DNA from: Candidatus Hadarchaeales archaeon
GTDB taxonomy: Archaea > Hadarchaeota > Hadarchaeia > Hadarchaeales > WYZ-LMO6
NCBI GenBank assembly: GCA_038736355.1
Contig: JAVYML010000001.1
Coordinates: 62,001 to 126,000, forward strand
Direction of reading: 5' to 3'
Length of the DNA: 64,000 nt
In this document: positions 27,305-53,028 of the stretch, piece by piece
How positions within the stretch are numbered: position 1 is the first letter of the stretch
Layout: the number at the start of each line of letters is the position of its first letter
Program-made: the position numbers and the translations under genes
The notes under the pieces: model-generated
What the model saw: only the letters and a program-made list of their open reading frames with translations
What the model was told of the DNA's origin: nothing
The model's database searches: none

Positions 27305-28216
27305 TCACTTGGTGGAAAGGAGGAGATTCAGGATCCTGGAGGAAACCCTCTCCAAAACCCTCACCTTCTCATTGAGCTTGGAGAGCTCCCTCTTGTACTT
27401 GGTCTCCAACCTCTTCACTTCTCTTTTCTGTTCCTCCCTTAGGGTCTCGAGCTCATCCTTTCTGGAGGCCATCTTCTCATAGTATTCCCTGATCTCCTGG
27501 GCAAGACGTTTCATGGTCTCCAGATCCCCCGTGAGCTTTGCCAGCTCCGCCTTCGTCACCGCCTGCTTCACCACCACATCCATCTGGCTCACCATCTTCT
27601 CCAAGGGCTTCACCGTCTCCTCCAGGGTGGCGAGCTTGAGGGAAAGGTTGGTCACGTCCCTGAAACCACGCTGGAACTCCAGGAAGGCTGCCATCACCTT
27701 ATCCGCCATCACTTCCACTTGATCCTTCAGCTGCTGAATCCTGAGCATGTTCTTCCTGGCCTCATCGGTCATTCCCAGGATGGTTTCCATCCCCTTGAAC
27801 TGGGCCACGGTGGACCTGAACTCCTTCATTTCGTTCATCAGGCTCTTGATCATGTCCTCCAGGGCCACCAGCTTAGTATTCAGCTTCTCTATCTCCGCAT
27901 CCCTCCTCATGATGGCGGCCCTGAACTCCTCGGGTCTTATCCCCTCTATGGCCATGAGGGCTTTCTCTGCCTTCGCCTTCAGTTCGGCGTTGTCCTTGGC
28001 CTGCGTGAGGACCATCGACCTTATCTCCCCAATCTTTTCGCTCAGGGTGGTGAACCTCGCATCGTAAACCTCCCTGAAGCTGGCGAGGGCAGTGACCTGG
28101 GCCTCCAGCTGATCAAGCCTCATCGCGAGGGGAGGTGACTTCTCACCCTTTTCCGCCGGCGGGGGGGCAGGATCTTCCTTTTTCTCCTCCTTCTCCCCTT
28201 TCTTCTTCAACTTCAT
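27305..28216 (-). CDS. Cytosolic coiled-coil protein, second gene of the G1 operon
   Basis: 303 residues; no known family recognised. A Lys/Glu/Pro-rich lead (about 1-30) precedes almost continuous predicted coiled coil (RLDQLEAQVTALASFREVYDA to the end) with heptad-like Leu/Met/Ile spacing. There is no signal peptide or membrane span. It starts three bases after the G1 stop, so it is translationally linked to the G1 ATPase tail. A likely role is a scaffold or adaptor between the G1 cytosolic ATPase domain and the MinD-like ATPase; G1 itself has coiled coils both outside (about residues 6940-7085) and after the ATPase core. Confidence 0.85.
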   Translation of the reverse strand: MKLKKKGEKEEKKEDPAPPPAEKGEKSPPLAMRLDQLEAQVTALASFREVYDARFTTLSEKIGEIRSMVLTQAKDNAELKAKAEKALMAIEGIRPEEFRAAIMRRDAEIEKLNTKLVALEDMIKSLMNEMKEFRSTVAQFKGMETILGMTDEARKNMLRIQQLKDQVEVMADKVMAAFLEFQRGFRDVTNLSLKLATLEETVKPLEKMVSQMDVVVKQAVTKAELAKLTGDLETMKRLAQEIREYYEKMASRKDELETLREEQKREVKRLETKYKRELSKLNEKVRVLERVSSRILNLLLSTK

Positions 28217-28219
28217 CCT

Positions 28220-31200
28220 TCATCCCTTCTTCTTGTTGGAGCCACCATTTTTGCCCCCATTTTTCTTTCTCTTTTCCTCCGCTTTAGCCTTCTCCTCGGG
28301 CTCCTCCGGCTTCTCCCCCTTGGCCTCGGGATGAACCATCTCCTCTTCTTTCTCCTCCTTCAGGGGTTTCCCAGCCTCACCGTGCTTCACTTCCTTCTTC
28401 GGACCCAGGATTTCCTTGTAGGCCTCTATGATCTCCGGTGGCCTCTTCATCATCGCCAGCTGCCTCTCGCGCTCCCTCAGGGCTGCAAGCTGGGCCCTCT
28501 TGATTTCCTCCTCCGGCACCAGCTCGATTACCCTCTTGATGCCCTTGAGCTTGTGCTTGGCACAAAGCTCATCCACCCTGGGCTCCAGGGAATCGAGGTA
28601 GGCATTCACCATGTCGAAGGAAGCCTCCTCCAGCTTGCGCTGGGCCAGGCCAAGCTCGATCCTCAGGTCGAAGACATCCACCCCCTTCTCCTCCAGTTTC
28701 TTCAGCTTGAACTTGATGTTCTCTATCCTGTCGTCGGCGGCGTAGTACTTGTCCAGCTCCTCTGGAGAGAGCCTGAAGGGAGAGTGTAGGATGGGCCTGA
28801 AGTTCACGTAGTACGGTCTGCCGCGGTTGTAGTCTGGGTTCACGACCATCCCGAAGCCTATGGGTGCCCTCGAAACGGATCTCACGTGCTCCTCACCGTA
28901 CTTCATGGCTATGCGCTGGAGCTCTCCCTCCTCCCTCGTCCAGAACTGTATCTGGGTGCGGCAGTTCGTCTGGATGGTTTCGGAGAAGTCGGCTATGGTC
29001 TGGGAAACCAGCATCACCCCTATTCCCCACTTCCTGAATTCCCTGACCGCCCTCTCCAGCTGGATGACACCGGCCCCCGTTCCACCGTACTTCGGGAGAA
29101 GCCTGTGTACTTCGTCGAAGATCAGGAGCACCTTCAGCTCCGGATACTCCCTGGGCTGTGACTCGAAGATGGACTGAATCACGTTGGTCACGAAGATGTC
29201 CATGTCACCGGGCTTGAGCCTCTCTATCACGAACACCGTGATCTTACCCCTGGCCTCCTCACCGAGCAGTTCCTTCATGTCTATCTTCTGCCTCGGATTC
29301 GTGATCAGCTTCACCACACCCGGGAAGCTCCTGGCATCGGCTTCCGTGAGACCGAACTTCGGATAGTGGGAAAGCATGCGCTCGTCCGTGCACTTGCGGA
29401 GGAAGCCCGTCCACTGGGCGGTGGGATCGAAGACGATCACGTTCTTACCCTGCTTCAGGGCCTCTTCCGCTATGACCATGGAGGAGATGGTCTTTCCACC
29501 CCCGGTGGCACCGGCGGTGATGACGTGCATCCTCAGGTCGGAGAGCTTGAGATAGGCATCGCGCTTGGCCTCTGCCAGCGTACCCAATTTGATGGCATCT
29601 GGACCTGGCTTGGGAAGCTCCTCCAGGAAGAGGGTGGCCTCGAACCTGCGCTTGGCACTCCTCCTCTTCTTCACATACCTGTAGGAGAACCTTCCCGCCA
29701 CCCCCATGCCCACCATGCAGAGGAGGAGGAGGGCCAGCATCCACAGGGGCAGGCCCAGGACCCTCAACTCCCTGGGAGGCCTCCTCACCTGCATGAAGCT
29801 CTGATCGGGGGTGAGTTTGAACTCCTTACCGGCCCAAACATACCTCCCGCCCGTCCTTATCAGGTAATCTCCTTCAGGTAGGTTCTCCGGTACCCTGAGT
29901 TCGAAAGTGTGCAGCTTGACCTCTCCCGCCTCCAGCTCCAAGTTCTCCGCTACCTCCGCGACTATCTCTCCGGCCGTGCTCACCAGTTGGACGGAGACGG
30001 AGGAGGAAATGCGCGAATTGCCAAGGTTTTTGACCTCCACCCCCACCCTCAGGGTCTTGCCCGGAGCTATGCTGGGTGGCACCATCTTCAGCTCCGCCCT
30101 GAGGTACTTCCTCACCTCCACGGTATCCGTGGCGCTCACCGAGATCACGTCGCCGTTGAGTCTGTAGTCGGCCCTCGCCCTCACGAGGTAATAGCCTTCC
30201 TCCGCATTTTCGGGTACCATAAGCGTTGTATCCACCGCCAAGGTTTCACCCGCCTCCACCAACCTTGCCTGTCCGGTGGCATCGGGCAATACCACCACTC
30301 CGGCCGAGGTGAGGAGCTCCAGGAAGAGCTGGGTCTCCGAAGCCATCTCCCCCATGTTGACCAGCGTGACCTTCACGGGCAGGAGCCCTCCCGGAGAAAC
30401 CGTCCTCATCATGGGGGTGACCTTCAGGTCGAAGAGACCCCTGGCGCTTGGCAGGACCCTGATGGTGACGGGTACGCTCTTCTCCACGTATGCATCCTTG
30501 ATCACCACTTCTCCCGTGTAGGTCTTGGGTGGGGTCTTCCTCGGAATCTTCACCGAGACCTTGATCTTCCCGCTCTCGCCCGGGTTGAGGGTCAGGAGGG
30601 TGGGACTGAAGGTGAGGAAGCCCTCGTCCTTCACTTCACCCGTCGAGTCCGGCCTGAGGTCCAGCGGGATGAAGGCGTTGTTCTTCACCGTGAGATACAC
30701 GTCCGCCGTCCCCTCCTGGTAGAGCTCCAGGGAGAGGGACTCGGGATCCACCGTGATGGGTTCCCTGGGGGCGACGTTCTCCATCATCAGCCTGAAGGCA
30801 TTCTCCATCAGGGACTGGAGCCTGAGGGCAGACTCGCTCTCCTGCTGCCTGAGGTTCTCTATCCCTTGCCAGACCGTCTGGAAGCCCGACCAGAGGGCAT
30901 TGATCATGTTCTCCATCAGGTTCACCGAGGTGCCCTGCAGGGCGATCAGGTTCTCCAGGATCTGGCTCATGGTCTGGAGCGGGCTCAGCAGGGTGTTCTC
31001 CAGCGTCTTCATGTTCTCTTGCGTGACCAGGCCGGAGACGATGGCTGCCATGTTGTCCACCACGCTCTTCAGGTTCTCGGCCGCGCTGGACATGGTGCCC
31101 GAGGCCTGGGTGAGGGCACTGGTGGCCTGCTCCATCTGGGAGATGGTGTTCTCCAGCCTGAGCACCTGGGTGGCGAAGGGATCGTACTCCGCAAGCACGT

Positions 31201-34200
31201 AACAGGCGACCTGGGAGCGCAAATTGTCCTCGGCGGTGAGGGTGTATTTCGTGATATCGATGGTCCCTCCCTGGTTGATCCATGTTCCGCTCCTCACCCT
31301 GGTCCAGAAGTCCCATCCCTCCGCCCTGTACATCCTCAGGTACCACACGTCACCCACCCGACTCAGGTAGGAGGAGAAGTCGAAGGTGAGGGTGAGCCTG
31401 GAGAAGTTGTCCGTGAAAACGGGATGGAGCAGGACGGCCACGGAGCGGTGGGTGGCCCTGGTCCCGTCCACGCTGGTGAAGGCAGAGGGCGGGAGGTCCA
31501 CCCTCACCAGGTTCTCCAGGTTGTCGTAGGGCTGGAGCTGGTCCAGGTTGAGGTTCTCGTACCTGAGGGTGATGCCCTGCTCGGTGAGTTTCACCTCCAG
31601 GTCGAAGCGCCCGGCGAACACCTGCTTCTCGTACCTGCCCTGGTCATCGGTACTTACCTCGAAGGCCTTCTCAGAGGTTCCCACCTCGTAGAAGGTGAAG
31701 GTGGTGGGCACGGGTATTCCCTCCAGCTTCTTCACCTCACCCCTGAGGTTGATGGGCCTCCCGGCCAGGATCTCCCTGGAGTTCTCCCCCTTCAGGCCCT
31801 CCGCGTCCGTTCCCTTCACCTCCACCAGGTACAGACCGCGCTTGGGGAAGGTGTGGGTGAAGGAGTAGTCTCCGTTGTCGAGGGTCTGGACGGTTCTCAC
31901 GGGTTGTCCCTGCACGTAGACCTGGAGGGTGATGCGGGAGGCGGGGATGAGATCCGGGAGGGAGAGGGCCCTGCCGCTGAAGCCGAAGGGTACTCCCTCG
32001 GGAGCCACCTCGCCCTGAGGTATCAGGGAAATCCAGAGGGTTCCGGTGGTGAGGACGACCTGGTTCTCGACCTCCAGCCCCCTGCGGTCCGTCACCCTCA
32101 CCCTCACGTTCTCCCTGCCCACCTGCTGGGGTGCGGTGAGGACGGTGGAGTAGCCGCCCGTCTGGGAGGTTGGGAGGATCCGCTCGGTACCGAGGAAGGT
32201 CAGGATCACGTTCTCGTTCTCCACCGGGATGCCGTCGGGAAGGAGGGTGAGGGTTCCGCTGGCCGTCACGTTCTCACCCGGATTCACCACGTAGTCGCTC
32301 AGCACCAGGGACAGGCGGAGGGCCTTCACCTGGTATTGAACGGTCTGGTTGTACACGTACCCGCTTATCCCGTTGGCGGTGAGGATGGAAACGTCGAGGT
32401 TCTTGGAATAGGTACCCAGTGTCTGGGGGGCGGTGTAGGAAGCGTAAGTCCTCCAGTACCCATCCCTCACGTGGGTGAGACCGGGCGGGCTGGGGGTGGC
32501 CCCATCCACCTTCACCGTCACACTTCCCATCGTCACGGGGAAGAGTTCGGAACCGTTGTTCTCCAGGATCCTCACGGCAAGGTAGAAGTTCTCCCCCGGG
32601 TTGAGCACGCCGTCGAACTGGCCGTGGGAGTCGAGGGTACCGAACCACTGGAACTGCACTATCCTCTGCTCGAAGTACTGGGTGTTCTCACCCACGATTC
32701 CATCGGGGTTCTGCAGGCGCACGTACACGGTGTGCTTGGAGGGGGCGGGGGCATCCTTGGTGTAGAGATAGAACCAGTCACCGTTCTCGTCGGTGTAAAC
32801 GGTGGACTCGTAGAACCCGTCCACCCTTATCTCCACCGCCGTGTTTTTGACGGGGGTCCCGTCGGGCAGGAGCACGGCCTTTCCGCTCATGGTGAAGTTC
32901 TGGTCGAGCGTGACGATGTTGTCATCGAAGGTGAGGGAGAGGCTGATCGTCTTGACCCTCAGCTCCTTCACGTTCTCGCTCCAGAAGACTCCCACGGTGG
33001 TGCTGGCCTTCCCGTAGTAGGTTCCAATACGGGAGGGGGAGAGGAAGGTGATGGAGTAGTAGCCGTTGGCATCGGTGAAGTTCTCTCCTCCTCCCGCCCA
33101 GTTCCCGTTCTCGTCGAAGAGGGAGAAGGTTACCTTGTTGAAGGCCACGGGCTCGTTGCCAGGCTGTAACACCGCCCTCCCGCTCACGGTGTTGGGCTGG
33201 GAGGGATTCACCACCTCGTCCGCGTACTCCATGGAGATGTCTATTCTCCTGACGGAGAGGGTGGTGAAGTTCTCCCCGGTGATCCCCTCGGCAGCCGTGA
33301 TCCTCACCCTGTACTCGTAGACCCCTATCTGGGTGGGGGCGTAGATCTCGAAGCGGTAGGAACCGAAGAGGTCCGTGTTGTCCACGGCTATGACGGAGTT
33401 GTCACGGAGGAGGGTGATGGTGGTGTTGATGACAGGAGAACCCTCGGGCCTCAGCCTCACCTCACCCGAGATCCTCATGGCCTCTCCCGGGTTGGCCTCG
33501 TTCCTTGGGACCCCCGCCGTGTCGGTGAGGGAGAGGGAGACGGTGAGGGTCTTGACGGTGAAGATGGCGGAGTTCTCTCCCCTGATCCCCTCGGAGCTGA
33601 CCGCCCAAGCGAGGAGCTGGTGTGGTCCGAGGGTGGAGGGAGCGCTCACCCCTATGCTGTACCTCCCGTTCTCGTCCGTGCTTCCCTCCCCGGCTATCTG
33701 CCCGTCCACGTACACCGTGACGGTGGCGGAGGTCTCCGGAACGTTCTCCCAGACCCTCCTCACCTCCCCGGAGACGGTGAGGGGCTGGCCCGGGTTCACC
33801 ACGTAGTCGTCCAGGGAAACCGTGACCGAGAGGGTCTCCACCTTGAAGATGAGCTGGTTCTCCTCCCTGGTGCCCTCCTTGTCGGTGAGGGCCACCCTTA
33901 CCACGTGCAGCCCCAGCACGTTGCTGGAGAGGGTCAGGGAGTACTCCCCGTTCTCATCCGTGGGAAGGTTCTCCAGCGGAGAGTCGTCCAAGTACACCTC
34001 CACGTTCTCCCCCACCACGGGGGAGTTCTCGGGCTGCCAACTGGCCCTCCCGTAGACCGTAAGGCTCTCCCCTGGGTTCACCGCGTTGTCGGAGAGGAAG
34101 AGGGTGAGTACCAGGTCCTCGATTCTGAGCCTGAAGGGTGAACTCCAGTCGCCCGCGTTGCCCGCCCTGTCCACGGCGCGGACACGCCAGTACCAGGTGC

Positions 34201-43200: not shown

Positions 43201-46200
43201 CGCAGACCCTCCAGAAGTACAGGCCGAAGGTGGGAAGGATGACCGTATGGGAGTTCTCGGTGACGAAGGAGTTTTCGTAAACGGTGATGGAGAAGTCGGG
43301 AGTGGTCGAGACCTGGATCCTGTACCTAGCCACTCCCGAACCCGGACTCGGGTCCGAGCCCGTGTACCACCTGAGGATGGGAGACAGGTTGTCGGTGAAG
43401 CAGGAATTGTTCTCCGGCAGGTAAAGTTGGACCTGGTTGGGCGGGGTCCTGTCCACCCCGAAGGTGGCTAGGTCAGACCACGGCCCCGCGTTCCCTGCGT
43501 TGTCCACCGCCCGTACCCTCCAAGTGTAGTAGTCCTCCGTGATGATGGGTGGATCCACCACCCAGTTCTCATTCTCGTCGCCGGTCACCCAGAGGTCCCT
43601 CGTGGAACCGTATGCCGCCCCTGAGATCTGAATCTGGATGTGGTACCTGAGGGGGAGGGAATTCTCCTGGACGGGGAGGTACCAGCGGAGGTTGGGGGCC
43701 CCGTTGGTCCAGACTCCTCCCGTCGGGTAGTCGAGGATGGGGGCGGGCGGGGGAACGGTGTCCAGCCTGAAGGAGCTGACCGACCAGGCCCCGACGTTTC
43801 CCGCGTTATCCCAGGCCCTCACCCTCCAGTAATAGACGTTGTCCGGCAGGATGATGGGGACTTCCCTGTAATCCTCCGTGAACCCGTTGTCGCTCCAGAT
43901 CACCTGGTCGAAGTTGACATCTGTGGCAACCTGAACCTCATAGGTGACGGGAGTGGCTTCCTCCGGGGTTCCGTCCACCTCCGTGGTCACGGGCTCCCAG
44001 TCGAGGAGGGGCGTGGAATCGTTCAGGTTCTCCCCGTTCCTAGGAGCCAGGAGGATCGGGGCCGCGGGGGCCTGGGTATCAACCCTGAAGGTCCAGATCT
44101 CCGACCATGGACCGGTGGCACCCGTTCTCTTCTGTCTCACCCTCCAGTAGTAGAGGCCATCCGGGAAGGATGTGAGGAAGGTCTTGTTCGGGGAGACGAG
44201 CCCATAGGCGGGTCTGTATACCTCGGACCAGTCGTTGTCGTTGTCGACCTCCAGGTCAAAGGTGTCTGCGGGCTGCACGTTCTCCCAGCTGAAGGTTGGG
44301 GAGGCATTGGGGGTGTTGATGCCGTTGGGTGGGGTCAGCAAACGGGGCGCCGGAACGGGGGCATCCACGGTTCCCGTCCAGCTCTCCATCCCGTACCATC
44401 CGGCCGGGGCAACTACCACCGTCGACCAGCTCTCCACCGCGCCCCACCGCGCCGGGGAAGGAACAACCGCGGTCCAGGAGTCCAATGAACACCAGATCAC
44501 GGGAACGGAGGAAACGGTTCCTGTCCAGGAGTCCAGGGAGTACCAGAAGAGGGGGACGGAGGAGACCGTGGAGGTCAAACTGTCCAGCGGGTACCAGATC
44601 ACGGGAACGGAGGAAACGGTTCCTGTCCAACCCTCGATCATGCGCCAGCTGGCTGGAGCGCTAAAGAGGAGGGCCCATCCCTCGACCTCCCTCCAGCTCA
44701 CGGGAACCGAGCTCACCGTGACCCACCACCCCTCCACTTCCTGCCACACCACCGGCACGGAGCCCAAGGAAGCACTCCATCCCTCCAGCGTCCTCCATGT
44801 GGCCGTTCTCACGCTTCTGACCTCGGACCAGGGACCCTCGTTCCCAGCCTTGTCCACTGCCTTGACGCGCCAGTAGTAGGTCCCCAGGGCTGGGAAGATG
44901 TACTGGTAGTCGTTGTCGGGGTAGGGCTGGTTCTCGTCCACTAGGAGGGAAGTGAAGGAGGGATCGGTGGCTATCTGGATCCAGTAGTTCTCCGTTCCCG
45001 AGGGTGTGTCCACGGCGGTCTGCCAAACGAATACCACCACCGTACCGTTTTCGAAGGCCTGCTGGTTTTCGGGGGAGGAGAGCTGGACCTGCGGGGGTGG
45101 GGTGGCATCCACCCTGAAGCCCACCGCGGAACAGAAGGCGCTGGGGTTCCCGGCGTTGTCTATGGCCCTTATGCGCCAGTAGTAGTAACCCTGCGTTAGC
45201 GGTGGGACCGTCCAGTTCTCCCCGTAGAGCTGGTTCTCCTGGACCACGATGGTGAAGTCGCTCCAGTTCTCGGTCGCGATTTGGACATGATATCTCACGG
45301 GACGTGAGTTGTCCTCCACCGCCTGCCAGGTAAGGTTGGGGGTGGTCCTCGTCCAGGCGTCGTCCCTGGGCCAGACGGGAACGGGGACGGGGGGAGGCGT
45401 GGTGTCGATGCGGAAGACCACTTCCGTGTTGTCGCCCACGTTCCCCGCGTTGTCCCTGGCCCTCACCCTCACGCGGTAGAGATTGTCGGGGAGGGAGGGG
45501 AGGGTGTACTGGTTCTCGGGAATCCAGGCGGAGACGTGCTCGGGGGAGGAGAAGTCGGGATCGTTGTCCACGATCACCTGGTAAAGCAGGGGGAGAGAGT
45601 ACTCGGGCGAACCGTCGTACTGCTTGGTCACATTTTCCCACCTTATGGTGGGGGTGCTCGTTCCCAGGTTCTCCCCCTGCAGGGGGGAGAGCACCACGGG
45701 GGAGGCCGGCCTGGTCAGATCCACGCGGAACTGCCAAGTCTCGGAGTTCTCGGAGTCCACCCCGCTCCTCGTCATGCGGACGCGCCAGTAGTACAGACCA
45801 TCCGCCAGCTCCAGCAGGTCCTCGGCAGGGTTGTAGTTGGGAACGGTCTTGGGCTTGCTCACGCAGGGGGAGCTGAAGTCGGGATCGTTGTCCACCCAGA
45901 TCCAGAAGGAGTCGGCTGGCTGGAGGTTCTCCCAGGTGAGGGTGGGCTGGCGTGTATTGAGGTTCCTGCCGTTCTCGGGGGAGAGAAGCCGCGGGGCGGG
46001 AACGGGGGCGGAAGCAGTGGCCTGCCATTTCTCCAAGATGCGCCACTCCACCGTGGTGTAGGCCCCCGCCGTCCAGGCCTCTAGCTCCCTCCATCCCGTG
46101 ATGGGGGCCCCCGAAGAGGTAATCCATCCCTCGAGGACGAACCAGCACCTGAGGATGAGGGAGCGGGTCTCTGACCAGGGACCCTCGTTCCCCACCGCGT

Positions 46201-49200
46201 CTATGGCCCTGACCCTCCAGTAGTAGGTCCCTATCCCCAGGAAGTTGTAGGAATAGGAGTTCTCGGTGGGCGGGAGAAGGGTGTTCACTAGGGGGGAGAG
46301 GAAATCGGGGGCATCATCTATCTGGATCCTGTAGTTCGCGAGCCCGGAACCTCCATCCACGGTGGTATACCATTGGAGGACCAGGGAGAGCTGGTCGGTG
46401 AAGGTTACACCATTTTCCGGCCAGTAAAGCTGGACCTGCGGGCACTCGTTGTCGATGCGGAAGCTCCTGCTCCCGCTCCAGTCGCTCACGTTTCCGGTTC
46501 CAGCGTTGTCCCTGGCCCTGACCTGCCAGTACCAGACGGTGTTGTTCTCGTAGCAGGGAAGGGCCACCCAGTTGTCGTCCGTGATCCATCCCGAGGAATA
46601 GACCCCGGTCTGGAAGCTCGGGTCCTGCGAGACCCTGATCTCGTAGAACACGGGAGTGGATAGCTCCGTGTTGCCCGCGTTGTCCAGTGTGACGGCTGCC
46701 CAGTCGAGGTTGGGGAGGGCGGCCACCCAGGCCCCGGTGGCCGGCCAGGAGGGCTGGGGCACGGCGGGCGGAACAGTATCGATGCGGAAGCTCCGGTAAG
46801 TGGTGGGCCAGGACCCTACATTACCCGCATTGTCCTTGGCCCTGACCTTCCAGTAGTAGGTGTTGTCGGAAAGGGCGGAGGGGATTTGGTAGTTGTCGGT
46901 GGTGATCCAGTCCGTGGGATATCCGGGCACGGAGCTCAGGAAGGAGGAATCGTAGGCTATCCACACCTGGTAGAGGAGGGGATAGGAGTTCTCGGCCGGA
47001 GGCTCCCAGTCCAGGAGGGGCGTGCTGGTGTTCAGGACCGCCCCGTCCGCGGGTGAGACGAGCGTGGGTGGACCAGGTGGGAGGGTGTCGATGCGGAAGC
47101 TCCAGGGGGAGGTCCAGGCGTACCAGGAGTTGTTGAAGTACCTCTGAATCCTCCAGTAGTACAGGCCATCGTCGAGCGGGGTGGGCGGGGTCCAGGCGTT
47201 CTCGGTGCCGGGGATGGCGCTGTTGTCCACCACCACGTTGTTGAAGAAGTAGTCGGTGGCGATCTGGATGCGGTAGTTGTCCGCCGCCACGCTCTCCCAC
47301 TGGAAGGTGGGCTGCGCGTTGTTGAGGTTGAGCCCGTCGGTGGGGTAGATCAGGTTGGGGAGGGTGGAGACGTTGAAACGTACCCAGTCCACCTTGGGGC
47401 CGTTCTCTCCCGTGAGGATGGCATGCTGGGAGGAGAAGTAGATCCTGTACTGGATGTAGCGGTTGTCTGGGATGTTCTCCATGGTGGTGGCGGCGGCCTC
47501 GAAGTAGGTGGAGGAGGTCCCGTCCGGCCCCATCCAATCCGTCCAGTTAAGGTTGTCCCCGCTCACCCTCACCTGCAACTTCACGTCGGAGGTCGCCCAG
47601 AAGGCCTCCTCTATCCTGACCATGTCCAGGATGAGGTAAGTGGGAGTAGCGTCGCTCGGGCTGTCGTCCCTGAACCTGATGTGCACGCTGTCGCCGTCCA
47701 GATAGTTCTCGATGGGGGAGAGGCGGAAGGTGATGGTGGAGGGGGCCTTCCTGGGCATGTAGTACTCTGTGCACTGCCAGCTGCTGGAGGCCACGTTCCA
47801 CACGTCGATCCAGATGTACTCCAAATCATTGTAGGTGTACCCTCTGATTTTCAGGTCGTAGTTCTCATAGCCCGTGGTGATCCCGGTTATGGTGTACTGC
47901 CAGTTCAGGGACTGACCGGCGGCGGTTGTGGATTTGACCCTTGTATAGTTGAGCATGAAGGATGTGCTCACCGTGTCGAACTGGGTCGGGATGTCGGTCT
48001 GGACGTATCTGACCCTCACCTTTCCTGTACCGAGGATGTAGGGGGTGCCGGTGAGCTCGTAAGACCACTGGGTTGGGGTCTTCGAATCAAGGAGGCCGAC
48101 ATAGTCCCACTCCCCGACATCGAAGTCCCAGAGATAAACCTCAATATTTTCGTCGTCGCCGGTGAGGTAGTACGCGACTTCCAGCGTGTATGATGCCCTT
48201 CCGGTCGGAGCCATCAATGTATGGATGACCTCAAGGTTGTAGCCGGGCTTTACCCCGCGCACCCCGATGTAGTCAACGTAGATCTTTGTGATGCTCTCTT
48301 TAGTGTTATCATTGTCTACTATTCTTACGTGCACGTTCTCTCCTCCGAAGAGGAAATCGGGATGCAACTGAACGCTAAAAACAGTCCAAACATCCTTCGT
48401 GAGGTCCCCCAGCCTCACCCAAGTTCCAGGGCTCTGGGAATTCTCAACCTCCACGTGGAATTTGTCGAGGGTGTTGCTGAGCTTGTAATAAATCTCCAAA
48501 AAGTAATTTTCTGCTAGGGGAATGTTATCTACATTCTCATATACCTCCAGCCCGTAAAGGGTCGGCCAGTGGCGCCTGCAGCTGAGGTCCGCCCTTCCGT
48601 GAACGGGATTAGGCGGGAGCTCGCTAACCACAAACCGGATTGATGGGGTTGCGCTGAGGTTGTTCCAGGTCGAGCCGCTATTCGTGGACCAAATGGGGAA
48701 GATCCCGTCGTACGCTGGAGCGGCACCGTCATCGGCCAGAACTATCCCGAGTATGTAGTTATTATACCAGTGGGTCTTGAGCACGATTCTCGCCGTGTCA
48801 TCACCAGCGGTAGTTGCAGCGCTCCAAGCAGAACCATTCCACTGCTTCCGCGAAATAGTTGCTCCATCACCCCACAAAAGCCAGGCATAGCCAGGGGGGG
48901 AAAACAGATAAGTTAGAGCGGCATTGTAATCTGTTCCAGCCTCAGTCGCCGCGTCATGCTCAGCGTCTAGAGTCCAAGTACCGACTCCGTCCCATCTGAT
49001 AGTGTTCAGATCGGCACCGGCATCTTGGCTCACCAGAATCATCTTATTGTCGGATGGATGCGCCACGAGCTCAAGCCACTGAGCAGCTCCACCGAACTGG
49101 GCCGAGTAATCGTTGGTGGTAATGGCCGAGAGAGAGGTCCCATCCCAAATTCTGTAGCTAATACCGTTAACCGCACTCGAAGCCCAAACAAAGATGGCAC

Positions 49201-52024
49201 GACCAGAGAGGCTCTCGTAAGCCACCTCCACCCTATTACCACTTGTAGCGGCGGCGGTAGCCCAACTCGCACCGCTGCCGAGATTGTCCCACATGTTTAG
49301 ATCCCCCCTCCATACCATCCCGTAGACATTCGCGTTACTGTCCACCATGATCATGGCTATGTCGTTGTTATCGGGGAGGGGATTTGGAGCAAGCTCTATC
49401 CAAACTGGGTAGCCCGTCAGAGGCACGCTGACCGTCGCCTCAGAGGACCAGCTGCTCCCATCCCATAGTCTGTAGGCGAAGACTCCCGCAGTATCGTCCA
49501 AGTTATATACCACAAGGGCTCTGTCATTTCCGTTCTCATAGGCAATATCGAAGGGCCTCTTGGACGTCGTCGCCCAAGTAGTGGAGGATACCGTCAGGGG
49601 AGCGCTCCAGCTCCCGGTTGTCCCGTCATACACATAGAAGGAGATATATCCCGAGTCGTCGTATACCCCCAGAATCATTTCATTGCGGGTTCTGGCGGAC
49701 TCAAGCCTAACCCATTGAACTACTCCGGGGGCTGCCGGAGGAGTGGGCATGGCTACCCATTCCGACCCGTTCCATTCCTTCACCCCAGGAACCTCGGTAC
49801 CGGTGGAATAGACTGCCACGGCTTTCGGCTGCTCAAATATCTGTATTCCGCCCTCGATGTAGGTGGCATACCCTTCAGCCTCCTGCTGCTGGTAAGAGAA
49901 GTTCTCTATCCTGCCCCTGCGGTTTTCGTAATACTGAGCGTAGGTGTAGGCAGTGGCGCTGTATGAGTTCTCATATATGTTCTCGTAATTGCTTCCCCCT
50001 GCCTCCGTGGTGTCCGCGACCTCCATGGCATTTTCCGTGTCGATGGTCCCGCCCGCAACTACTGTTTCGTTCTCCGGACTCTCCATCACAGTATAAGTGA
50101 CGCCACCTGCCGCCCCAGTCTCGCTCAGGTTCTCGTAGGATCCATCATCCGGATTCCGTGTGTTCTCGTAGGTCCCCTGCCACTGTGTCCCAACCCTTGC
50201 GCTCCCGTCCTTGAGGGTGTCTGGCTCGGCCCCAACGTAGGCTATATTTGTGGCACCCCCCTGAGGTTCCGTGAAGCTCCAGACTAGGTTGTCCCACTGG
50301 GCCACCCCTCCCGCGTCGAAGACCCTGGAGGTAAACCTTCCCTGCGTGTACCCGTAGATCAGCCTCACCACATCCCCCACGTTCTCCGTGTTCTCGTGGG
50401 TTCCCAAGGAGAACTCCTCGTTCGTGTTGTCCACGAAGGCGAAGGTGGAGAAGCCCGGGGTCCTAGCCAGGAAGAGGATCTCCCCACTCTCCTCACCCAC
50501 CTCCACCGTGGGCAGCTCCTCCCATCCAGGCTCCCCGTAGTGGAAGAGGACGGCCCTGCTACCCGAGGGGTTGGAGCCCCTCAGCCATCCCTTCGGAACG
50601 GCAAATTCTATCTCCGCCTCCTCCAGGTCCTCCCTGGCGACGGAGGGGGAGATCTCCACATAAGCCAGGACCCTCTTACCCTCCAGCGGGGGGACCTCCT
50701 CCGGCTTTCCGGGGCTCACGTAGACCTCCACCCCCTCCAGATCCCTAGCGGCCCTCAGGCTCACGGCCCTGAGCAGGAGGCCCTGTCCTCCGAAGTCCGC
50801 CCTTTTCTTCTCCCCTGCCCTCATCCTGCCCACGACCGCCTTCCGGCCGTGCCTGGGTTCGGCCCTTATCCCCCAGACCTTGGGTCCATTTTCCCCGCTC
50901 AGCCTTGGATCCTCGCTTCTCAGGAAGACCCTGACCTGCAGGTACCTAGAGGGCGGGAGGAAGGAAAGATCGACGGGGGGTGAGGTGAAGAAGGTGTTGG
51001 GGGTACCATCGGGACCCATCCACTCGCTCCAGCTCTCCCCGTCGGTGCTCACCCTTACCTGCAGGTCCACCCGCGAGAGGGCCGGGGTGCCCGCGCCCCC
51101 CGCCGGAACCTGCTCCTGGCCCCCTGCGTTCTCCTCCATCCCTTCCCGTGAACCCTCGTTCTCGGAAGGGACGGGGATAATATCCCGACCCTCCACGGTT
51201 CCCTGATCTGATGGGGTCTCTTCTTCGGTCTGGGGCTCTAGATTTTCCTGAACCCCCGTTCCTTGGTTCTGGTCCTCCTGGGTCCCCTCGTTTTCGACAA
51301 CACCCCCGTTCTCGAGACTTTCTCCTACAACTTCTTGATTCTCTGCCGGGATCGGACTTTCATTCTCCGGGGGGGCCTCCTGTACTCCTTCTCCGTTTTC
51401 AGCTGCACTCCCATTTTCGAAACCATTTTCCTGTGCCTCCTGGAGCTGGCCCAGTCCCTCCGAGTTTTCAGGGTTCTCCGTCCATCCCTCCGCCACCCCT
51501 TCGCTCGGGGAAGAAGCGTTCTCGACGGTGCTCCCGGCGGGGCTCACCTCGAGGGACTGGCCCTCCGCCGAACCCCCAGCGCCCTGGGTCCCCGTCCCAG
51601 GCATGGAGGGCTCGTTCTCCTCCCAGGTCAGGAGGCTCCACCTCACCACCCTCCCCGCGTCGAAGATCTCCGAGACGAAGGACCCCTGCGTGCACCCCGG
51701 GAGGAGCCTCACCACGCCCCCCGCGTTCTCCGTGTTCTCGAAGAGGGGATAGGAGATGGAGGGAAGGGGAGAGGAGGGAGAAGCGGCCACGGGAAAAACG
51801 GGAACGGAGGAGGTGAGGAGGAAGAGGGTGAGGAGGAGGGAGAGGCTTCTCCTCAGCGCCTCCCAGGTACAGAGGGGGGGCGCGGAGGCGGCCCGCCCCT
51901 CAAAAAAGAGGTCGCCTCCGCACGAGGGTTGGGGATAAAGGGGCTTCGGACGGGAGGGGGGCCGCGGAACGGAGTAGCTGGGCTCGACCTCGACAGCGGA
52001 GCCTTCAACAATCTCGCCACTCAC
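28220..52024 (-). CDS. Giant trans-envelope protein G1: Fn3/W-repeat/Ig-like stalk fused to a cytosolic HerA-type ATPase
   Basis: 7934 residues, GTG start at 52022-52024 after GAGGGGGGCCGAGG. A Pro-rich lead of about 57 residues precedes a signal sequence (SLSLLLTLFLLTSSVPVFPV). Next come an Asn/Glu-rich linker (about 140-310), a PGF-pre-PGF-like domain, a beta-propeller-like region (about 720-1130), about 40 Fn3-like domains (about 1540-5975) with three W-repeat blocks, about eight Ig-like domains carrying VVNPGQPLTVSG motifs (5975-6760), a coiled coil (6940-7085) and three more Ig-like domains. A single TM (LPLWMLALLLLCMVGMGVAG, about 7422-7443) leads to a cytosolic ATPase: Walker A GATGGGKT (about 7500), Walker B LKVLLIFDEVHRLLP (about 7630), sensor VSQTIADFSETI. 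This is the HerA/VirB4/FtsK superfamily core, normally a hexameric DNA or protein translocase. The tail is Lys/Glu-rich. One polypeptide would span the envelope; its function is unknown. Confidence 0.9.
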   Translation of the reverse strand: MSGEIVEGSAVEVEPSYSVPRPPSRPKPLYPQPSCGGDLFFEGRAASAPPLCTWEALRRSLSLLLTLFLLTSSVPVFPVAASPSSPLPSISYPLFENTENAGGVVRLLPGCTQGSFVSEIFDAGRVVRWSLLTWEENEPSMPGTGTQGAGGSAEGQSLEVSPAGSTVENASSPSEGVAEGWTENPENSEGLGQLQEAQENGFENGSAAENGEGVQEAPPENESPIPAENQEVVGESLENGGVVENEGTQEDQNQGTGVQENLEPQTEEETPSDQGTVEGRDIIPVPSENEGSREGMEENAGGQEQVPAGGAGTPALSRVDLQVRVSTDGESWSEWMGPDGTPNTFFTSPPVDLSFLPPSRYLQVRVFLRSEDPRLSGENGPKVWGIRAEPRHGRKAVVGRMRAGEKKRADFGGQGLLLRAVSLRAARDLEGVEVYVSPGKPEEVPPLEGKRVLAYVEISPSVAREDLEEAEIEFAVPKGWLRGSNPSGSRAVLFHYGEPGWEELPTVEVGEESGEILFLARTPGFSTFAFVDNTNEEFSLGTHENTENVGDVVRLIYGYTQGRFTSRVFDAGGVAQWDNLVWSFTEPQGGATNIAYVGAEPDTLKDGSARVGTQWQGTYENTRNPDDGSYENLSETGAAGGVTYTVMESPENETVVAGGTIDTENAMEVADTTEAGGSNYENIYENSYSATAYTYAQYYENRRGRIENFSYQQQEAEGYATYIEGGIQIFEQPKAVAVYSTGTEVPGVKEWNGSEWVAMPTPPAAPGVVQWVRLESARTRNEMILGVYDDSGYISFYVYDGTTGSWSAPLTVSSTTWATTSKRPFDIAYENGNDRALVVYNLDDTAGVFAYRLWDGSSWSSEATVSVPLTGYPVWIELAPNPLPDNNDIAMIMVDSNANVYGMVWRGDLNMWDNLGSGASWATAAATSGNRVEVAYESLSGRAIFVWASSAVNGISYRIWDGTSLSAITTNDYSAQFGGAAQWLELVAHPSDNKMILVSQDAGADLNTIRWDGVGTWTLDAEHDAATEAGTDYNAALTYLFSPPGYAWLLWGDGATISRKQWNGSAWSAATTAGDDTARIVLKTHWYNNYILGIVLADDGAAPAYDGIFPIWSTNSGSTWNNLSATPSIRFVVSELPPNPVHGRADLSCRRHWPTLYGLEVYENVDNIPLAENYFLEIYYKLSNTLDKFHVEVENSQSPGTWVRLGDLTKDVWTVFSVQLHPDFLFGGENVHVRIVDNDNTKESITKIYVDYIGVRGVKPGYNLEVIHTLMAPTGRASYTLEVAYYLTGDDENIEVYLWDFDVGEWDYVGLLDSKTPTQWSYELTGTPYILGTGKVRVRYVQTDIPTQFDTVSTSFMLNYTRVKSTTAAGQSLNWQYTITGITTGYENYDLKIRGYTYNDLEYIWIDVWNVASSSWQCTEYYMPRKAPSTITFRLSPIENYLDGDSVHIRFRDDSPSDATPTYLILDMVRIEEAFWATSDVKLQVRVSGDNLNWTDWMGPDGTSSTYFEAAATTMENIPDNRYIQYRIYFSSQHAILTGENGPKVDWVRFNVSTLPNLIYPTDGLNLNNAQPTFQWESVAADNYRIQIATDYFFNNVVVDNSAIPGTENAWTPPTPLDDGLYYWRIQRYFNNSWYAWTSPWSFRIDTLPPGPPTLVSPADGAVLNTSTPLLDWEPPAENSYPLLYQVWIAYDSSFLSSVPGYPTDWITTDNYQIPSALSDNTYYWKVRAKDNAGNVGSWPTTYRSFRIDTVPPAVPQPSWPATGAWVAALPNLDWAAVTLDNAGNTELSTPVFYEIRVSQDPSFQTGVYSSGWITDDNWVALPCYENNTVWYWQVRARDNAGTGNVSDWSGSRSFRIDNECPQVQLYWPENGVTFTDQLSLVLQWYTTVDGGSGLANYRIQIDDAPDFLSPLVNTLLPPTENSYSYNFLGIGTYYWRVRAIDAVGNEGPWSETRSLILRCWFVLEGWITSSGAPITGWRELEAWTAGAYTTVEWRILEKWQATASAPVPAPRLLSPENGRNLNTRQPTLTWENLQPADSFWIWVDNDPDFSSPCVSKPKTVPNYNPAEDLLELADGLYYWRVRMTRSGVDSENSETWQFRVDLTRPASPVVLSPLQGENLGTSTPTIRWENVTKQYDGSPEYSLPLLYQVIVDNDPDFSSPEHVSAWIPENQYTLPSLPDNLYRVRVRARDNAGNVGDNTEVVFRIDTTPPPVPVPVWPRDDAWTRTTPNLTWQAVEDNSRPVRYHVQIATENWSDFTIVVQENQLYGENWTVPPLTQGYYYWRIRAIDNAGNPSAFCSAVGFRVDATPPPQVQLSSPENQQAFENGTVVVFVWQTAVDTPSGTENYWIQIATDPSFTSLLVDENQPYPDNDYQYIFPALGTYYWRVKAVDKAGNEGPWSEVRSVRTATWRTLEGWSASLGSVPVVWQEVEGWWVTVSSVPVSWREVEGWALLFSAPASWRMIEGWTGTVSSVPVIWYPLDSLTSTVSSVPLFWYSLDSWTGTVSSVPVIWCSLDSWTAVVPSPARWGAVESWSTVVVAPAGWYGMESWTGTVDAPVPAPRLLTPPNGINTPNASPTFSWENVQPADTFDLEVDNDNDWSEVYRPAYGLVSPNKTFLTSFPDGLYYWRVRQKRTGATGPWSEIWTFRVDTQAPAAPILLAPRNGENLNDSTPLLDWEPVTTEVDGTPEEATPVTYEVQVATDVNFDQVIWSDNGFTEDYREVPIILPDNVYYWRVRAWDNAGNVGAWSVSSFRLDTVPPPAPILDYPTGGVWTNGAPNLRWYLPVQENSLPLRYHIQIQISGAAYGSTRDLWVTGDENENWVVDPPIITEDYYTWRVRAVDNAGNAGPWSDLATFGVDRTPPNQVQLYLPENNSCFTDNLSPILRWYTGSDPSPGSGVARYRIQVSTTPDFSITVYENSFVTENSHTVILPTFGLYFWRVCAIDAVGWEGPWSQVRNFYAGTWRVLEGWTLGVPTQLMGWMSLEEWTGHTYAPAHWLSLDSWTPTVSSVPVVWHPLEVWAAWTAAPAVWYGMEEWTSRVDAPVSWLVLEVWSCVFPTRVEWYALEGWLDTVSAPVPSPRLLLPPDKSGQADRVVNFSWDNVLPADYYNLQIDYENTFAEPFLLDTTTASKSYTYELPGTGTYYWRVKQYRDSDGAGPFPGAWSEWSAIWSVSVDITQPLPPVLVSPKNNENLNDNTPLLDWEPVEENSYPVAYYVLVYDAITLDQVRNAILYDYGSGENTQWEIVPPLPDGRYYWKVYAVDNAGNSSDASAIWYFRVDTLPPAEPILSSPPDNHKENRTEVQLSWNAVEENSRPVLYYVSISDTPSFSYENLGSGWIENTSWTATLTEGAWYWRVKARDNAGNEGSWSENRRLVIDLTPPAAPVLILPPHEVKTNDNTVNFEWEPVENEVDGSVEDSLPLTYRVSISDDPGFGHENYTSGWMEATSWESFPIPDGIWYWRVCARDNAGNIGPWSENRKMTIDTSRPTTPVPVSPQNFENLNNITPTLRWENAFDLTTVVYKVWVATDNQFTQVVRESGWIYENFWTVTPSLPDGLYYWRVCARDEFYNYSDNSMVFAFRVDTLPPAPPVPLWPVGIKINDNSPNFRWQAPPENSYPLKYRVQLKNILHLVLWTSGWVEEENCKYPDQRSDDEYYWCVQAQDDAGNIGNFCEDIWFRIDTKRPSPPVPLSPVQGENLNDNTPSFTWEEVTTDETGGAEMSPPLLYRIWVARDASFLSIVADSGWFGGTSWTAPELEDGVYYWRVCTRDNAGNVGENSQTRWFRVDTLPPENVFLIWPENGAHVLAQPPLEWNPAVDNSLPVTYRVLINRVGLEENYRDSGWILANNWSVSPPLSDNDYEWRVIARDNAGNLFETPRRWFRVETQPPAPPVLYTPPSGENTSDNTPFLSWENVWDVSRPVMFYVWVATDNQFTQVVRESGWIYENFWTVTPSLPDGLYYWRVCARDNVGNIGDNSETRKFRVDTLAPPAPQPFLPENMGTTGSQVTFEWMPVEDNSGVIYHLQLFTYPDEAHLVYENDNLWENSHTCTLSEEVYLWRVRARDTAGNVGEWSGFFVFAVERWVRLVSPEDGFKTNENTPTLRWVSRLLAEKYEVWVDNDPNFGSPEVKENTLENSFTVPQPGLGDENYFWKVRMYVWGTPSPFSEVRTLLVDTVVPATTLSQPVDGYRTRENLVTFRWASVSDLSRSPTGENAGIRYYELWVDNDSDFSSPFHQENLTLLERTLQLPDENWFWKVRVWDEAGNFADSIVRSLLVDTVPPEVPETSPQHLMKTNDNTPTLSWSSVRDRSNSPTGEVAGVRYYELWVDNDPDFSSPLLVENLTENSYTFTFELGDENYLYRVRVWDWVGNASDFSSTWTFLVDTLAPTVPPKVAPSNGYITTNLTVTLTWGPSSDSSRSPTGENAGVAHYELIVDDDFVPPYAHYDNSLTSTTKNVTLSPGIYRWIVRAWDWAGNVSENEAPWILIIDTTGPSTPTPLEPVGIRTNTTLIRFAWTEATDDYSGVDRYHLQVDNDPDFSSPEFEEEPSASYLYLEISSDENYFWRVRAIDRAGNQGSWSEVSTFLRDTCPPSTPALSSPYHGYVTENTTLTFEWSQSTDASYSPTGEAAGVRYYEVWVDNDPDFSSPEVRENVSHPENSFSAVLPDGNYSWKVRAWDWAGNAGSWSTTWSFIVDTTPPERPVLLSPPNGSSTNDNTPVLSWSRPYDLAGIWKYELWVDNDSDFSSPEVRENVFDNFWEVSTELPDENYFWRVRAYDVLGHVGDWSISFSLMVDTVPPPAPSSSPSDGLITKEKNPTLTWSGVVDLSRSSTGEVSGLRYYELWVDNDPDFGSPLLIQFTPDNVFALGSDENYPSLGFTDENWFYRVRAWDWAGNAGSWSTTWSFIVDTTPPPPPVPMLPENGGMRNSAAVTFTWSVPEDLSGIAFYTLFVDNDPDFSSPSSYTASTNSRMVTLTDERYYWRVRATDRAGNVGENSVTYSFLLDTVPPQVTTLDIPANGLVTRENLQTFTWSYVIDTSNSPTGEVAGVRYYELWVDNDPDFSSPFLQENLTENFRTLELPDENWFWRVRVWDNAGNYSTSEVRTLLVDIRPPDIPSLQAPANGTRTRDNRPVFRWSAVVDRSWSPTGENAGVRYYELWVDNDPDFSSPEVLENVSDNSFQPSSSLPDENYSWRVRVWDWAGNVSEFSSTWTFLVDTVAPPAPPKVDVSPDTGVDDPPQRVVTKENTVTFYWQSVEDTSNSPTGENAGVRWYELTLENVATGYRISENVFGTSRTLTVPEGEWRWLVRAWDWAGNVSENEAPWILIVDLTPPSPPTLSSPHNNAITNNYSIRFDWQDAWDLYGIPAEGAYVIEVDNSTAFSPTSPYYKSATVSLSERTFIFYGGGAPQDERYYWRVKVKDNAGNESAWSEVWSVLLDTLPPDVPSKALPENNDILNDNLVTLAWGDVVDRSRSPSGDVAGLACYELWVAKDNLFTQLVLRENLTSSTKQLELADNRYYWRVRAWDLANNASDFEPPFTFVVDVNPPPAPVLLSPENGRVTKDNRPIFSWTKVYDVTGVTYELWVDNDPDFGSPEILENVAENSYQPSSGLGDEYYYWKVRAWDGLMGGERKAGAFSEVWELLVDTLPPDLPENSPLHGQIVGDRFTPLSWNQVSDRSNSPTGEVAGLSHYEIQVDNDPDFSSVDYSGTTVDNVWSLGDPGYPSAGFREDNFYFRVRAWDNAGNVPPWESCTIWNFVVDLTRPYGPALYAPENNAAENRVAGDYVVVNHDWEDVRDASGIDHYQIQVSLNPQFTSLLPSEYFSSNPDYLTSSEVTVFYPYDGRYWWRVRAYDRAAPNEPGEWSRVYELVVDRVKPLTPQLYSPENGKVTSDNTPSFGWENVPDNTSQTEEVSGVDHFVLQLDEDEGFSSPLTFENIRENSFTLPQENSLSVGTWYWRVRAVDRAGNAGDWSSPFRLRIEDLVLTLFLSDNAVNPGESLTVYGRASWQPENSPVVGENVEVYLDDSPLENLPTDENGEYSLTLSSNVLGLHVVRVALTDKEGTREENQLIFKVETLSVTVSLDDYVVNPGQPLTVSGEVRRVWENVPETSATVTVYVDGQIAGEGSTDENGRYSIGVSAPSTLGPHQLLAWAVSSEGIRGENSAIFTVKTLTVSLSLTDTAGVPRNEANPGEAMRISGEVRLRPEGSPVINTTITLLRDNSVIAVDNTDLFGSYRFEIYAPTQIGVYEYRVRITAAEGITGENFTTLSVRRIDISMEYADEVVNPSQPNTVSGRAVLQPGNEPVAFNKVTFSLFDENGNWAGGGENFTDANGYYSITFLSPSRIGTYYGKASTTVGVFWSENVKELRVKTISLSLTFDDNIVTLDQNFTMSGKAVLLPDGTPVKNTAVEIRVDGFYESTVYTDENGDWFYLYTKDAPAPSKHTVYVRLQNPDGIVGENTQYFEQRIVQFQWFGTLDSHGQFDGVLNPGENFYLAVRILENNGSELFPVTMGSVTVKVDGATPSPPGLTHVRDGYWRTYASYTAPQTLGTYSKNLDVSILTANGISGYVYNQTVQYQVKALRLSLVLSDYVVNPGENVTASGTLTLLPDGIPVENENVILTFLGTERILPTSQTGGYSTVLTAPQQVGRENVRVRVTDRRGLEVENQVVLTTGTLWISLIPQGEVAPEGVPFGFSGRALSLPDLIPASRITLQVYVQGQPVRTVQTLDNGDYSFTHTFPKRGLYLVEVKGTDAEGLKGENSREILAGRPINLRGEVKKLEGIPVPTTFTFYEVGTSEKAFEVSTDDQGRYEKQVFAGRFDLEVKLTEQGITLRYENLNLDQLQPYDNLENLVRVDLPPSAFTSVDGTRATHRSVAVLLHPVFTDNFSRLTLTFDFSSYLSRVGDVWYLRMYRAEGWDFWTRVRSGTWINQGGTIDITKYTLTAEDNLRSQVACYVLAEYDPFATQVLRLENTISQMEQATSALTQASGTMSSAAENLKSVVDNMAAIVSGLVTQENMKTLENTLLSPLQTMSQILENLIALQGTSVNLMENMINALWSGFQTVWQGIENLRQQESESALRLQSLMENAFRLMMENVAPREPITVDPESLSLELYQEGTADVYLTVKNNAFIPLDLRPDSTGEVKDEGFLTFSPTLLTLNPGESGKIKVSVKIPRKTPPKTYTGEVVIKDAYVEKSVPVTIRVLPSARGLFDLKVTPMMRTVSPGGLLPVKVTLVNMGEMASETQLFLELLTSAGVVVLPDATGQARLVEAGETLAVDTTLMVPENAEEGYYLVRARADYRLNGDVISVSATDTVEVRKYLRAELKMVPPSIAPGKTLRVGVEVKNLGNSRISSSVSVQLVSTAGEIVAEVAENLELEAGEVKLHTFELRVPENLPEGDYLIRTGGRYVWAGKEFKLTPDQSFMQVRRPPRELRVLGLPLWMLALLLLCMVGMGVAGRFSYRYVKKRRSAKRRFEATLFLEELPKPGPDAIKLGTLAEAKRDAYLKLSDLRMHVITAGATGGGKTISSMVIAEEALKQGKNVIVFDPTAQWTGFLRKCTDERMLSHYPKFGLTEADARSFPGVVKLITNPRQKIDMKELLGEEARGKITVFVIERLKPGDMDIFVTNVIQSIFESQPREYPELKVLLIFDEVHRLLPKYGGTGAGVIQLERAVREFRKWGIGVMLVSQTIADFSETIQTNCRTQIQFWTREEGELQRIAMKYGEEHVRSVSRAPIGFGMVVNPDYNRGRPYYVNFRPILHSPFRLSPEELDKYYAADDRIENIKFKLKKLEEKGVDVFDLRIELGLAQRKLEEASFDMVNAYLDSLEPRVDELCAKHKLKGIKRVIELVPEEEIKRAQLAALRERERQLAMMKRPPEIIEAYKEILGPKKEVKHGEAGKPLKEEKEEEMVHPEAKGEKPEEPEEKAKAEEKRKKNGGKNGGSNKKKG
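40142..40261 (-). repeat. Near-identical 120-base segment of G1, copy A
   Basis: Matches 41342-41461 with a single mismatch seen (taatac against tagtac); the offset is exactly 1200 bases, that is 400 codons or about four Fn3-like domains. It encodes FTQVVRESGWIYENFWTV and LPDGLYYWRVCARD. Confidence 0.85.
41342..41461 (-). repeat. Near-identical 120-base segment of G1, copy B
   Basis: Second copy of the segment at 40142-40261. The flanks diverge at once on both sides, suggesting local gene conversion or an old tandem duplication that has been homogenised. Confidence 0.85.
42800..43140 (-). repeat. W-repeat block of G1 (about seven units)
   Basis: Units include WMSLEEWTGHTYAPAH, WYGMEEWTSRVDAPVS and WYALEGWLDTVSAPVP, mixed 16- and 17-residue spacing, between two Fn3-like stretches. 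Confidence 0.85.
44355..44800 (-). repeat. W-repeat block of G1 (about nine units)
   Basis: Units include WQEVEGWWVTVSSVPVS, WYSLDSWTGTVSSVPVI and WCSLDSWTAVVPSPAR. The TVSSVPV half-unit is repeated almost unchanged, and the DNA between 44490 and 44640 is visibly repetitive. Confidence 0.87.
45998..46148 (-). repeat. Short W-repeat block of G1 (three units)
   Basis: WFVLEGWITSSGAPITG, WRELEAWTAGAYTTVE and WRILEKWQATASAPVP lie between Fn3-like domains 4 and 5. Each W-block in G1 follows an Fn3-like domain of the WSEVR type and ends in APVPxPRLL. Confidence 0.8.
47600..50250 (-). other. AT-richer domain insertion within G1, including a beta-propeller-like region
   Basis: Two halves of a repeated N-terminal module (FDAG...W strand near 50250-50395; EWMGPDGT...ENGPKV near 47350-47600) are separated here. 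The unbroken first copy of the module is at about 50850-51750. The inserted stretch encodes propeller-like blades (YRLWDGSSWSSEATV; YRIWDGTSLSAITT; KQWNGSAWSAAT) and several beta-sandwich-like domains. Base composition from about 48150 to 50100 is visibly less GC-rich than the rest of G1. Confidence 0.6.
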
Positions 52025-52632: not shown

Positions 52633-53028
52633 TTGGAAATCCTGAAGGATCATCCCATCAAGCTCGAGATAGGAGGGGAGGAATGGGAAACCCTGGATGA
52701 GAAAAAGGCCTCGGAGGTCAGCGAGGCCCTCGCGGACCCCATCAGGAGGTGGATCTACCAAGAACTGGGGAAGGGTTCCCTCAGGCAGGCGGAGCTGGCC
52801 AAGAAGGCCAGCCAGGCCCTCGGCAAGAAGATCACGAACGTGCTCATCCGCTACCACCTGAACAAGCTCGCCTCGGCCGGGCTCGTGAGGTTCGAGAAGG
52901 ACGAATCCCGCCCCAGGGTGAAGATGGTGCACAGGTGTTGCGAGGTGAGGATCCAGGTGAGACCCTTCTCCCCGCCCTCCGCGGGGCTGGAGGAGGTGCT
53001 CGCTGAGACCCTGAGGAGGAGAGGCTGA
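52633..53028 (+). CDS. ArsR-like winged-helix protein paired with ParA
   Basis: 131 residues from a TTG start. The winged helix spans about residues 25-95: EALADPIRRWIYQELGKGSLRQAELAKKA, then TNVLIRYHLNKLASAGLVRFEKDE. There is no CxC metal motif, so it is unlikely to be a metal sensor. The C-terminal part carries a CC pair (HRCCEVRIQVRP). It overlaps parA by one base (TGATG), so the two form a regulator-ATPase pair like par operons. It is on the opposite strand from G1, about 610 bases from its start. Confidence 0.8.
   Translation: MEILKDHPIKLEIGGEEWETLDEKKASEVSEALADPIRRWIYQELGKGSLRQAELAKKASQALGKKITNVLIRYHLNKLASAGLVRFEKDESRPRVKMVHRCCEVRIQVRPFSPPSAGLEEVLAETLRRRG

Follow-up and report, generated by a model that had tools for sequence, protein, structure and literature searches.

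The closest described relatives of the protein reported here are the SPEARE proteins of the Nanohaloarchaeota, first described by Hamm et al. in 2019 (PMC6642349). Both that study and La Cono et al. (2023) report giant surface proteins of Ig type that have a single C-terminal transmembrane (TM) helix and a cytosolic ATPase (PMC6642349, PMC10266531). The later study describes an Ig stalk, a TM helix, a VirB4/TraG-like ATPase and a coiled coil, proposes that the protein acts as a secretion straw, and rejects the protease domain of the 2019 definition (PMC10266531). Related intracellular parts were noted in Woesearchaeota, Aenigmarchaeota, Micrarchaeota and Altiarchaeales, and proteomics placed the ectodomain in a different size fraction from the TM helix and cytosolic part (PMC6642349). 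This split reflects either processing or an artefact of sample preparation. For nanosized archaeal symbionts, a role of SPEARE proteins as weapons or straws is under discussion. The genomes used here include those of Ca. Nanohalovita BNXNv (G044), which encodes an 8,880-aa protein, and Ca. Nanohalococcus SVXNc (G192).

Several characterised motors are related to the ATPase of these proteins. In HerA, mutation shows that K154, D176, E356 and R381 are needed, and R381 is an arginine finger that acts in trans across the subunit interface (PMC4351679). TdtA of Thermus thermophilus forms a HerA-like hexamer that pushes DNA out together with a NurA homologue (PMC5365140). CedD is a TM-anchored ATPase that is essential for archaeal DNA import. 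FtsK and the coupling proteins of type IV secretion systems (T4SS) are also membrane-bound motors of this superfamily that move DNA. Other members of the superfamily secrete proteins, for example EccC of the type VII secretion system.

The window, which is the whole stretch of DNA analysed here (64,000 nucleotides), comes from a 1.27 Mb genome of the Hadarchaeota. It contains the following features, with residue numbers referring to the giant protein:

16224 to 25673, minus strand: 3,149-aa surface protein with a C-terminal TM helix and a basic cytosolic tail
26453 to 27232, minus strand: MinD-like ATPase gene, past the partner gene
27305 to 28216, minus strand: helical partner gene, 303 aa, starting 3 nt past the giant gene
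28220 to 52024, minus strand: giant stalk-TM-ATPase gene, an open reading frame (ORF) of 7,934 aa with a GTG start
28556 to 28765, minus strand: conserved C-terminal helices, residues 7754-7823 (comparison and predicted structure)
28778 to 29596, minus strand: FtsK/HerA-type ATPase core, about residues 7477-7749, with K7511, D7533, E7638 and R7664
29705 to 29761, minus strand: single TM helix, residues 7422-7440 (hydrophobicity and predicted structure)
29876 to 30268, minus strand: NEW3/CARDB-like domains adjoining the membrane, residues 7253-7383 (Pfam)
34118 to 47323, minus strand: 40 Fn3-like units, residues 1568-5969 (Pfam Ig_Rha78A_N, Big_13 and fn3)
44312 to 44782, minus strand: tryptophan repeat of 16-17 aa (ESWTGTVSS type), residues 2415-2571
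51782 to 51838, minus strand: signal-type hydrophobic stretch, residues 63-81 (hydrophobicity)
53028 to 53834, plus strand: second MinD-like ATPase gene, lying upstream of the giant gene and divergent from it

The giant ORF contains no internal stops, and there are no N letters in the window. GC at the third codon position is 0.69-0.89 over the full length of the gene, and on this strand the two remaining frames carry 317 and 171 stops across it. The ORF is therefore a real coding sequence rather than a chance one. In the separately assembled genome of a sister species of the same genus (Hadesarchaea archaeon WYZ-LMO6, G002; L026/L032), the ectodomain, TM helix and ATPase also lie in one frame and are 94-95% identical, which together with the codon-position GC and the other-frame stops excludes a chance or frame artefact. 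The fusion recurs in approximately 70 other archaeal loci. The single frame of 7,934 residues given in the preliminary description of this locus is thus borne out, with no stop or frameshift between stalk and ATPase in either assembly.

Only two hydrophobic stretches are present in the giant protein, at residues 63-81 and 7422-7440. The first is preceded by 62 residues, so the true start of the gene may lie elsewhere; besides the called GTG, the ORF has no alternative ATG, GTG or TTG upstream of residue 79. The N-terminal 1,490 aa or so have few Pfam matches. The Fn3-like array that follows is broken up by the tryptophan repeat, and further Big-, Ig-, NEW3- and CARDB-like domains are found in the ectodomain by Pfam. 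Past the conserved helices, the C-terminal end is charged and of low complexity. This layout agrees with the signal sequence, roughly 40 Fn3-like domains, Ig-like domains and one late TM helix seen earlier, and the count of Fn3-like units is 40.

Like the SPEARE proteins, the giant protein has a signal sequence, tandem domains of Ig/Fn3 type that extend over thousands of residues, and a single TM helix late in the chain. A cytosolic ATPase, homologous to that of BNXNv_0298 (tails 39-40% identical), and a helical C-terminus are also common to both. The helical partner gene is also found downstream in nanohaloarchaeal loci. The preliminary description held that no described system has this fusion. 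This does not stand, since homologues are described in both studies, and the window protein is a member of an already described kind. It differs in coming from the Hadarchaeota and in having MinD-like neighbours. It also differs from the 2019 definition, as laminin-G and serine-protease domains have no Pfam match at 1e-3 in the giant protein, and it is therefore filed under the 2023 description and not under the 2019 domain list. The SPEARE loci of some nanohaloarchaea contain a tandem 620-aa ATPase paralogue, whereas the window locus does not and the next gene is the partner. Two of these companion ATPases (L063 8039-9910 and L023 14414-16300) have a signal stretch, a short ectodomain, a TM helix and the same motor. 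The domain PF03135, published for the companion ATPases, was not found by Pfam in these two copies. No mention of Hadarchaeota with a stalk-ATPase fusion was found in the open-licence literature, and the occurrence of the family in this phylum, which is not that of the published SPEARE proteins, is new.

The cytosolic tail carries Walker A (GATGGGKT) at residue 7505, the Walker B glutamate of IFDEVHR at residue 7638 and then VSQTIADFSETI, which places the three motifs named in the preliminary description. Both HerA_C and DUF87 score above cut-off in Pfam, and PDB searches by sequence and by fold return HerA hexamers as the best solved relatives, with FtsK later and EccCb1 among the fold matches. 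The earlier assignment of the tail to HerA/FtsK is supported by these matches. Among profile models, those of the VirB4/TraC/TrwB type match weakly. In an alignment with Sulfolobus HerA (4d2i), K154, D176, E356 and R381 correspond to K7511, D7533, E7638 and R7664. The K, D and R are invariant in a 62-sequence family alignment and the E is nearly so. As R7664 is the invariant counterpart of the arginine finger, it is a reasonable inference from sequence that the tail would assemble into a ring.

An AlphaFold2 single-chain model of the TM helix and tail is confident, with a mean pLDDT of 87.4, and shows two strands between the TM helix and the motor core. The HAS barrel of HerA is absent from this predicted structure. 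The tail had been called a complete HerA-type ATPase; its motor core is complete, but the N-terminal barrel is missing. The motor fold and the four catalytic residues are shared with HerA of Sulfolobus (4d2i) and Thermococcus (9x1m), and two family members have NurA next door, as in the HerA-NurA machine that acts on DNA ends. The tail differs from HerA in lacking the barrel, in being membrane-anchored with an ectodomain and in having approximately 15% identity in the structural alignment. CedD/CedB and VirB4 likewise combine a TM helix with an ATPase of the HerA/VirB4 class. CedD (NF053655) is the best NCBIfam match of the tail, but at 45.6 bits against a cut-off of 600, and the window family forms its own clade relative to CedD and similar outgroups. 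The N-terminal domain of VirB4 (PF03135) was not found in the tail by Pfam. TdtA, too, is a membrane-located HerA-like ATPase, and its neighbour belongs to the NurA family, as in two members of the present family; it differs in having no ectodomain and in lying on a mobile element. The giant protein is a SPEARE-type protein and is not a true HerA, CedD or VirB4.

An alignment of eight tails was searched against 393 archaeal genomes, each at least 80% complete. Archaeal stalk-TM-HerA fusions, the search for which had been suggested, are found: at a threshold of 1e-40, 58 of the 393 genomes match. Some matches are partial, mostly at contig ends; every other match reaches 1e-144 or better, which gives the family a sharp boundary. 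A single-sequence query against the genome contigs matches only in the sister species. The family is monophyletic relative to CedD and other HerA-like outgroups (support 0.94, in a tree with few outgroups that does not indicate which is sister), and the three Hadarchaeal members cluster within it. Only 3 of 28 Hadarchaeota genomes contain the family, which makes it patchy there, although assembly gaps may hide some members. A viral or plasmid origin was considered and rejected, as IMG/VR (alignment A2 patterns) and PLSDB plasmids (window tail) yielded no relatives.

Family members are marked by the motifs GxTGxGK, DPTAQW[TS]G, DEVHRLL, REFRKWG and SQV..DF. The TM helix lies directly ahead of the P-loop in all 72 extracted members, and all 24 complete ORFs have an N-terminal hydrophobic stretch. 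A strict motif pattern missed the P-loop in 16 members, but the alignment shows it intact in 72 of 72, and the idea of degenerate ATPases was dropped. One member (L103, G276a) has an altered Walker B (YDGIHTLL) and is possibly an inactive subunit; the same genome also has an intact member. Open frames reach 12,145 aa, while small complete members are approximately 620-690 aa, and ectodomains range from about 200 to more than 11,000 aa. The longest frames are 12,145 aa (G120:C8, L073), 11,262 aa (G073:C2, L086), 10,914 aa (G207:C54, L110) and 10,846 aa (G128:C9, L082), all of which exceed 9,409 aa, the reported maximum in cultivated archaea. This enormous variation in ectodomain size means that the motor can do its core job without a giant stalk. 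Together with the spread over 58 of 393 genomes, it suggests that what is conserved is not the giant stalk but a membrane motor and its partner.

The helical partner gene is so far undescribed and is nearly always encoded with the ATPase; no description of it was found in the open-licence literature on giant stalk-ATPase proteins. An iterated profile search recovered 56 relatives of the partner in the fetched loci, 55 of which pair with an ATPase gene. The partner lies at most three genes downstream of the ATPase in 60 of 69 informative loci and directly next to it in 45. Its core is 196 columns long and nearly gap-free, with the motif E..IGELRSM and a near-invariant proline, and the predicted structure consists of four long helices. 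Across 326 genomes, both genes are present in 50, the ATPase alone in three, the partner alone in two and neither in 271. One of the three ATPase-alone genomes is cut by a contig end and one contains a fragment. The co-occurrence (Fisher 1e-52, a value that ignores shared ancestry) covers many families of genomes. The distance matrices of partner and ATPase correlate with r 0.82, compared with at most 0.11 in permutations, again ignoring shared ancestry. Matches of the partner to the archaellum model FlaC_arch are below cut-off and of a generic coiled-coil type, and this identity was rejected. A second partner-like gene (L016/L017, G005:C2:23876-24442) is not adjacent to a family ATPase.

With the partner, the function of the giant protein can be tested as that of a two-gene machine. 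The minimal members and their partner genes are small, expressible targets, which opens to direct test the question of whether DNA, protein or nothing but the machines themselves is moved.

The reading that we favour, at about an even chance of being right as a whole, is that of a SPEARE-like stalk-TM-ATPase whose partner-associated ring motor moves a polymer, likeliest DNA, at cell contact. The stalk would be exported and anchored at the cell surface by its one TM helix, and the cytosolic tail and helical partner would form an FtsK/HerA-type ring. ATP hydrolysis would then drive the polymer through the ring at the membrane once the stalk, presumably an adhesin or reach device, had bound a neighbouring cell or surface. 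Of the possible cargoes DNA would be the likeliest, since DNA pumps are the closest relatives to have been characterised and NurA is coupled to two members of the family. The membrane-bound superfamily motors CedB/CedD and TdtA also move DNA, and the NurA-coupled members point in the same direction.

No gene for NurA, the nuclease that works with the DNA pump HerA, lies beside the 7,934-aa giant gene. NurA (PF09376, 1.1e-7, above cut-off) directly follows one family member each in G154 and G256, with overlapping genes (L121 2609-3601 and L117 5689-6708). Both of these members have a signal stretch, a short ectodomain and a TM helix, which suggests membrane-bound HerA-NurA pairs. The coupling is confined to these two members, whose genomes belong to a single family, and this counts against the favoured reading. 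One TM helix per subunit, no known channel protein and the enormous range of ectodomain sizes count against it as well. VirB6/TrbL (PF04610) was absent in 25 genomes, a weak test as the model also misses a CedD-bearing genome. A broader version of the DNA-pump reading is offered tentatively, as possible but on balance doubtful. It holds that the family is a widespread, T4SS-independent two-gene envelope machine of DPANN symbionts and other archaea, in which a TM-anchored HerA-like DNA motor with a near-obligate partner would carry stalks of any length for contact-dependent DNA exchange.

The single TM helix and the missing channel protein would also fit a device without transport, in which ring and partner form a membrane scaffold that clusters the adhesin, places it (with MinD) or pulls it. 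The near-obligate, long-helix partner favours such a scaffold, as do the MinD-like neighbours at both Hadarchaeal loci and two other family loci. These are four loci only, however, and the complete translocase active site with its strictly conserved arginine finger, together with NurA in two members, makes the scaffold a minority possibility. MinD/ParA-like genes are found near family genes of G005, G154 and G159. Only its position suggests that the second MinD-like gene of the window belongs to the system.

A protein secretion straw was proposed for the nanohaloarchaeal homologues (PMC10266531): the ATPase would be a type IV secretion motor, and effector proteins would pass through or along the stalk and enter an adjacent cell. 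The weak VirB4/TraC/TrwB-type matches and the EccC-type protein motors of the superfamily, with EccCb1 among the fold matches, are consistent with it. It is nevertheless unlikely, as the best structural match is HerA rather than VirB4, and PF03135, the VirB4 domain cited in its favour, was not found by Pfam in the tail or in the two nanohaloarchaeal companion ATPases. No VirB6-type channel was found in the weak PF04610 test described above, and the family also occurs in the Hadarchaeota, which are not known as symbionts.

A surface sensor, in which binding by the stalk would be relayed into the cell and the ATPase would switch cytosolic partners, would account for the one TM helix and for a constant cytosolic module under a variable ectodomain, and KaiC-like ATPases lie near family genes at seven loci. 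The motor-type active site and the lack of a signalling domain in the tail (Pfam) make it quite improbable. The original proposal for SPEARE proteins, a DNA-degrading restriction enzyme tail based on a Pfam ResIII match (PMC6642349), is barely credible and was rejected, as the tail has no endonuclease domain, the ResIII match is limited to the shared P-loop motor, HerA families score higher, and La Cono et al. also reject it (PMC10266531).

A second type of giant secreted protein lies near family genes at 13 loci. For the 3,149-aa surface protein of the window, position is likewise the only hint that it belongs to the system. At the other end of the window, an ORF of 1,952 aa (58086-64000, minus strand) is the last third of a further, 5,638-aa surface protein that runs on to approximately window coordinate 75002 (L031). 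This protein and the 7,934-aa protein match in their N-terminal parts (YPLFENTENAGG..RLLPG). A tandem repeat of 16-17 aa of the type ESWTGTVSSPASW is common to all three giants (16224-25673, 28220-52024 and 58086-64000). Between the second MinD-like gene and the 5,638-aa protein, a 403-aa ORF (55082-56293, minus strand) reads as having two C-terminal CxxC pairs like those of TnpB/IS605-type proteins.
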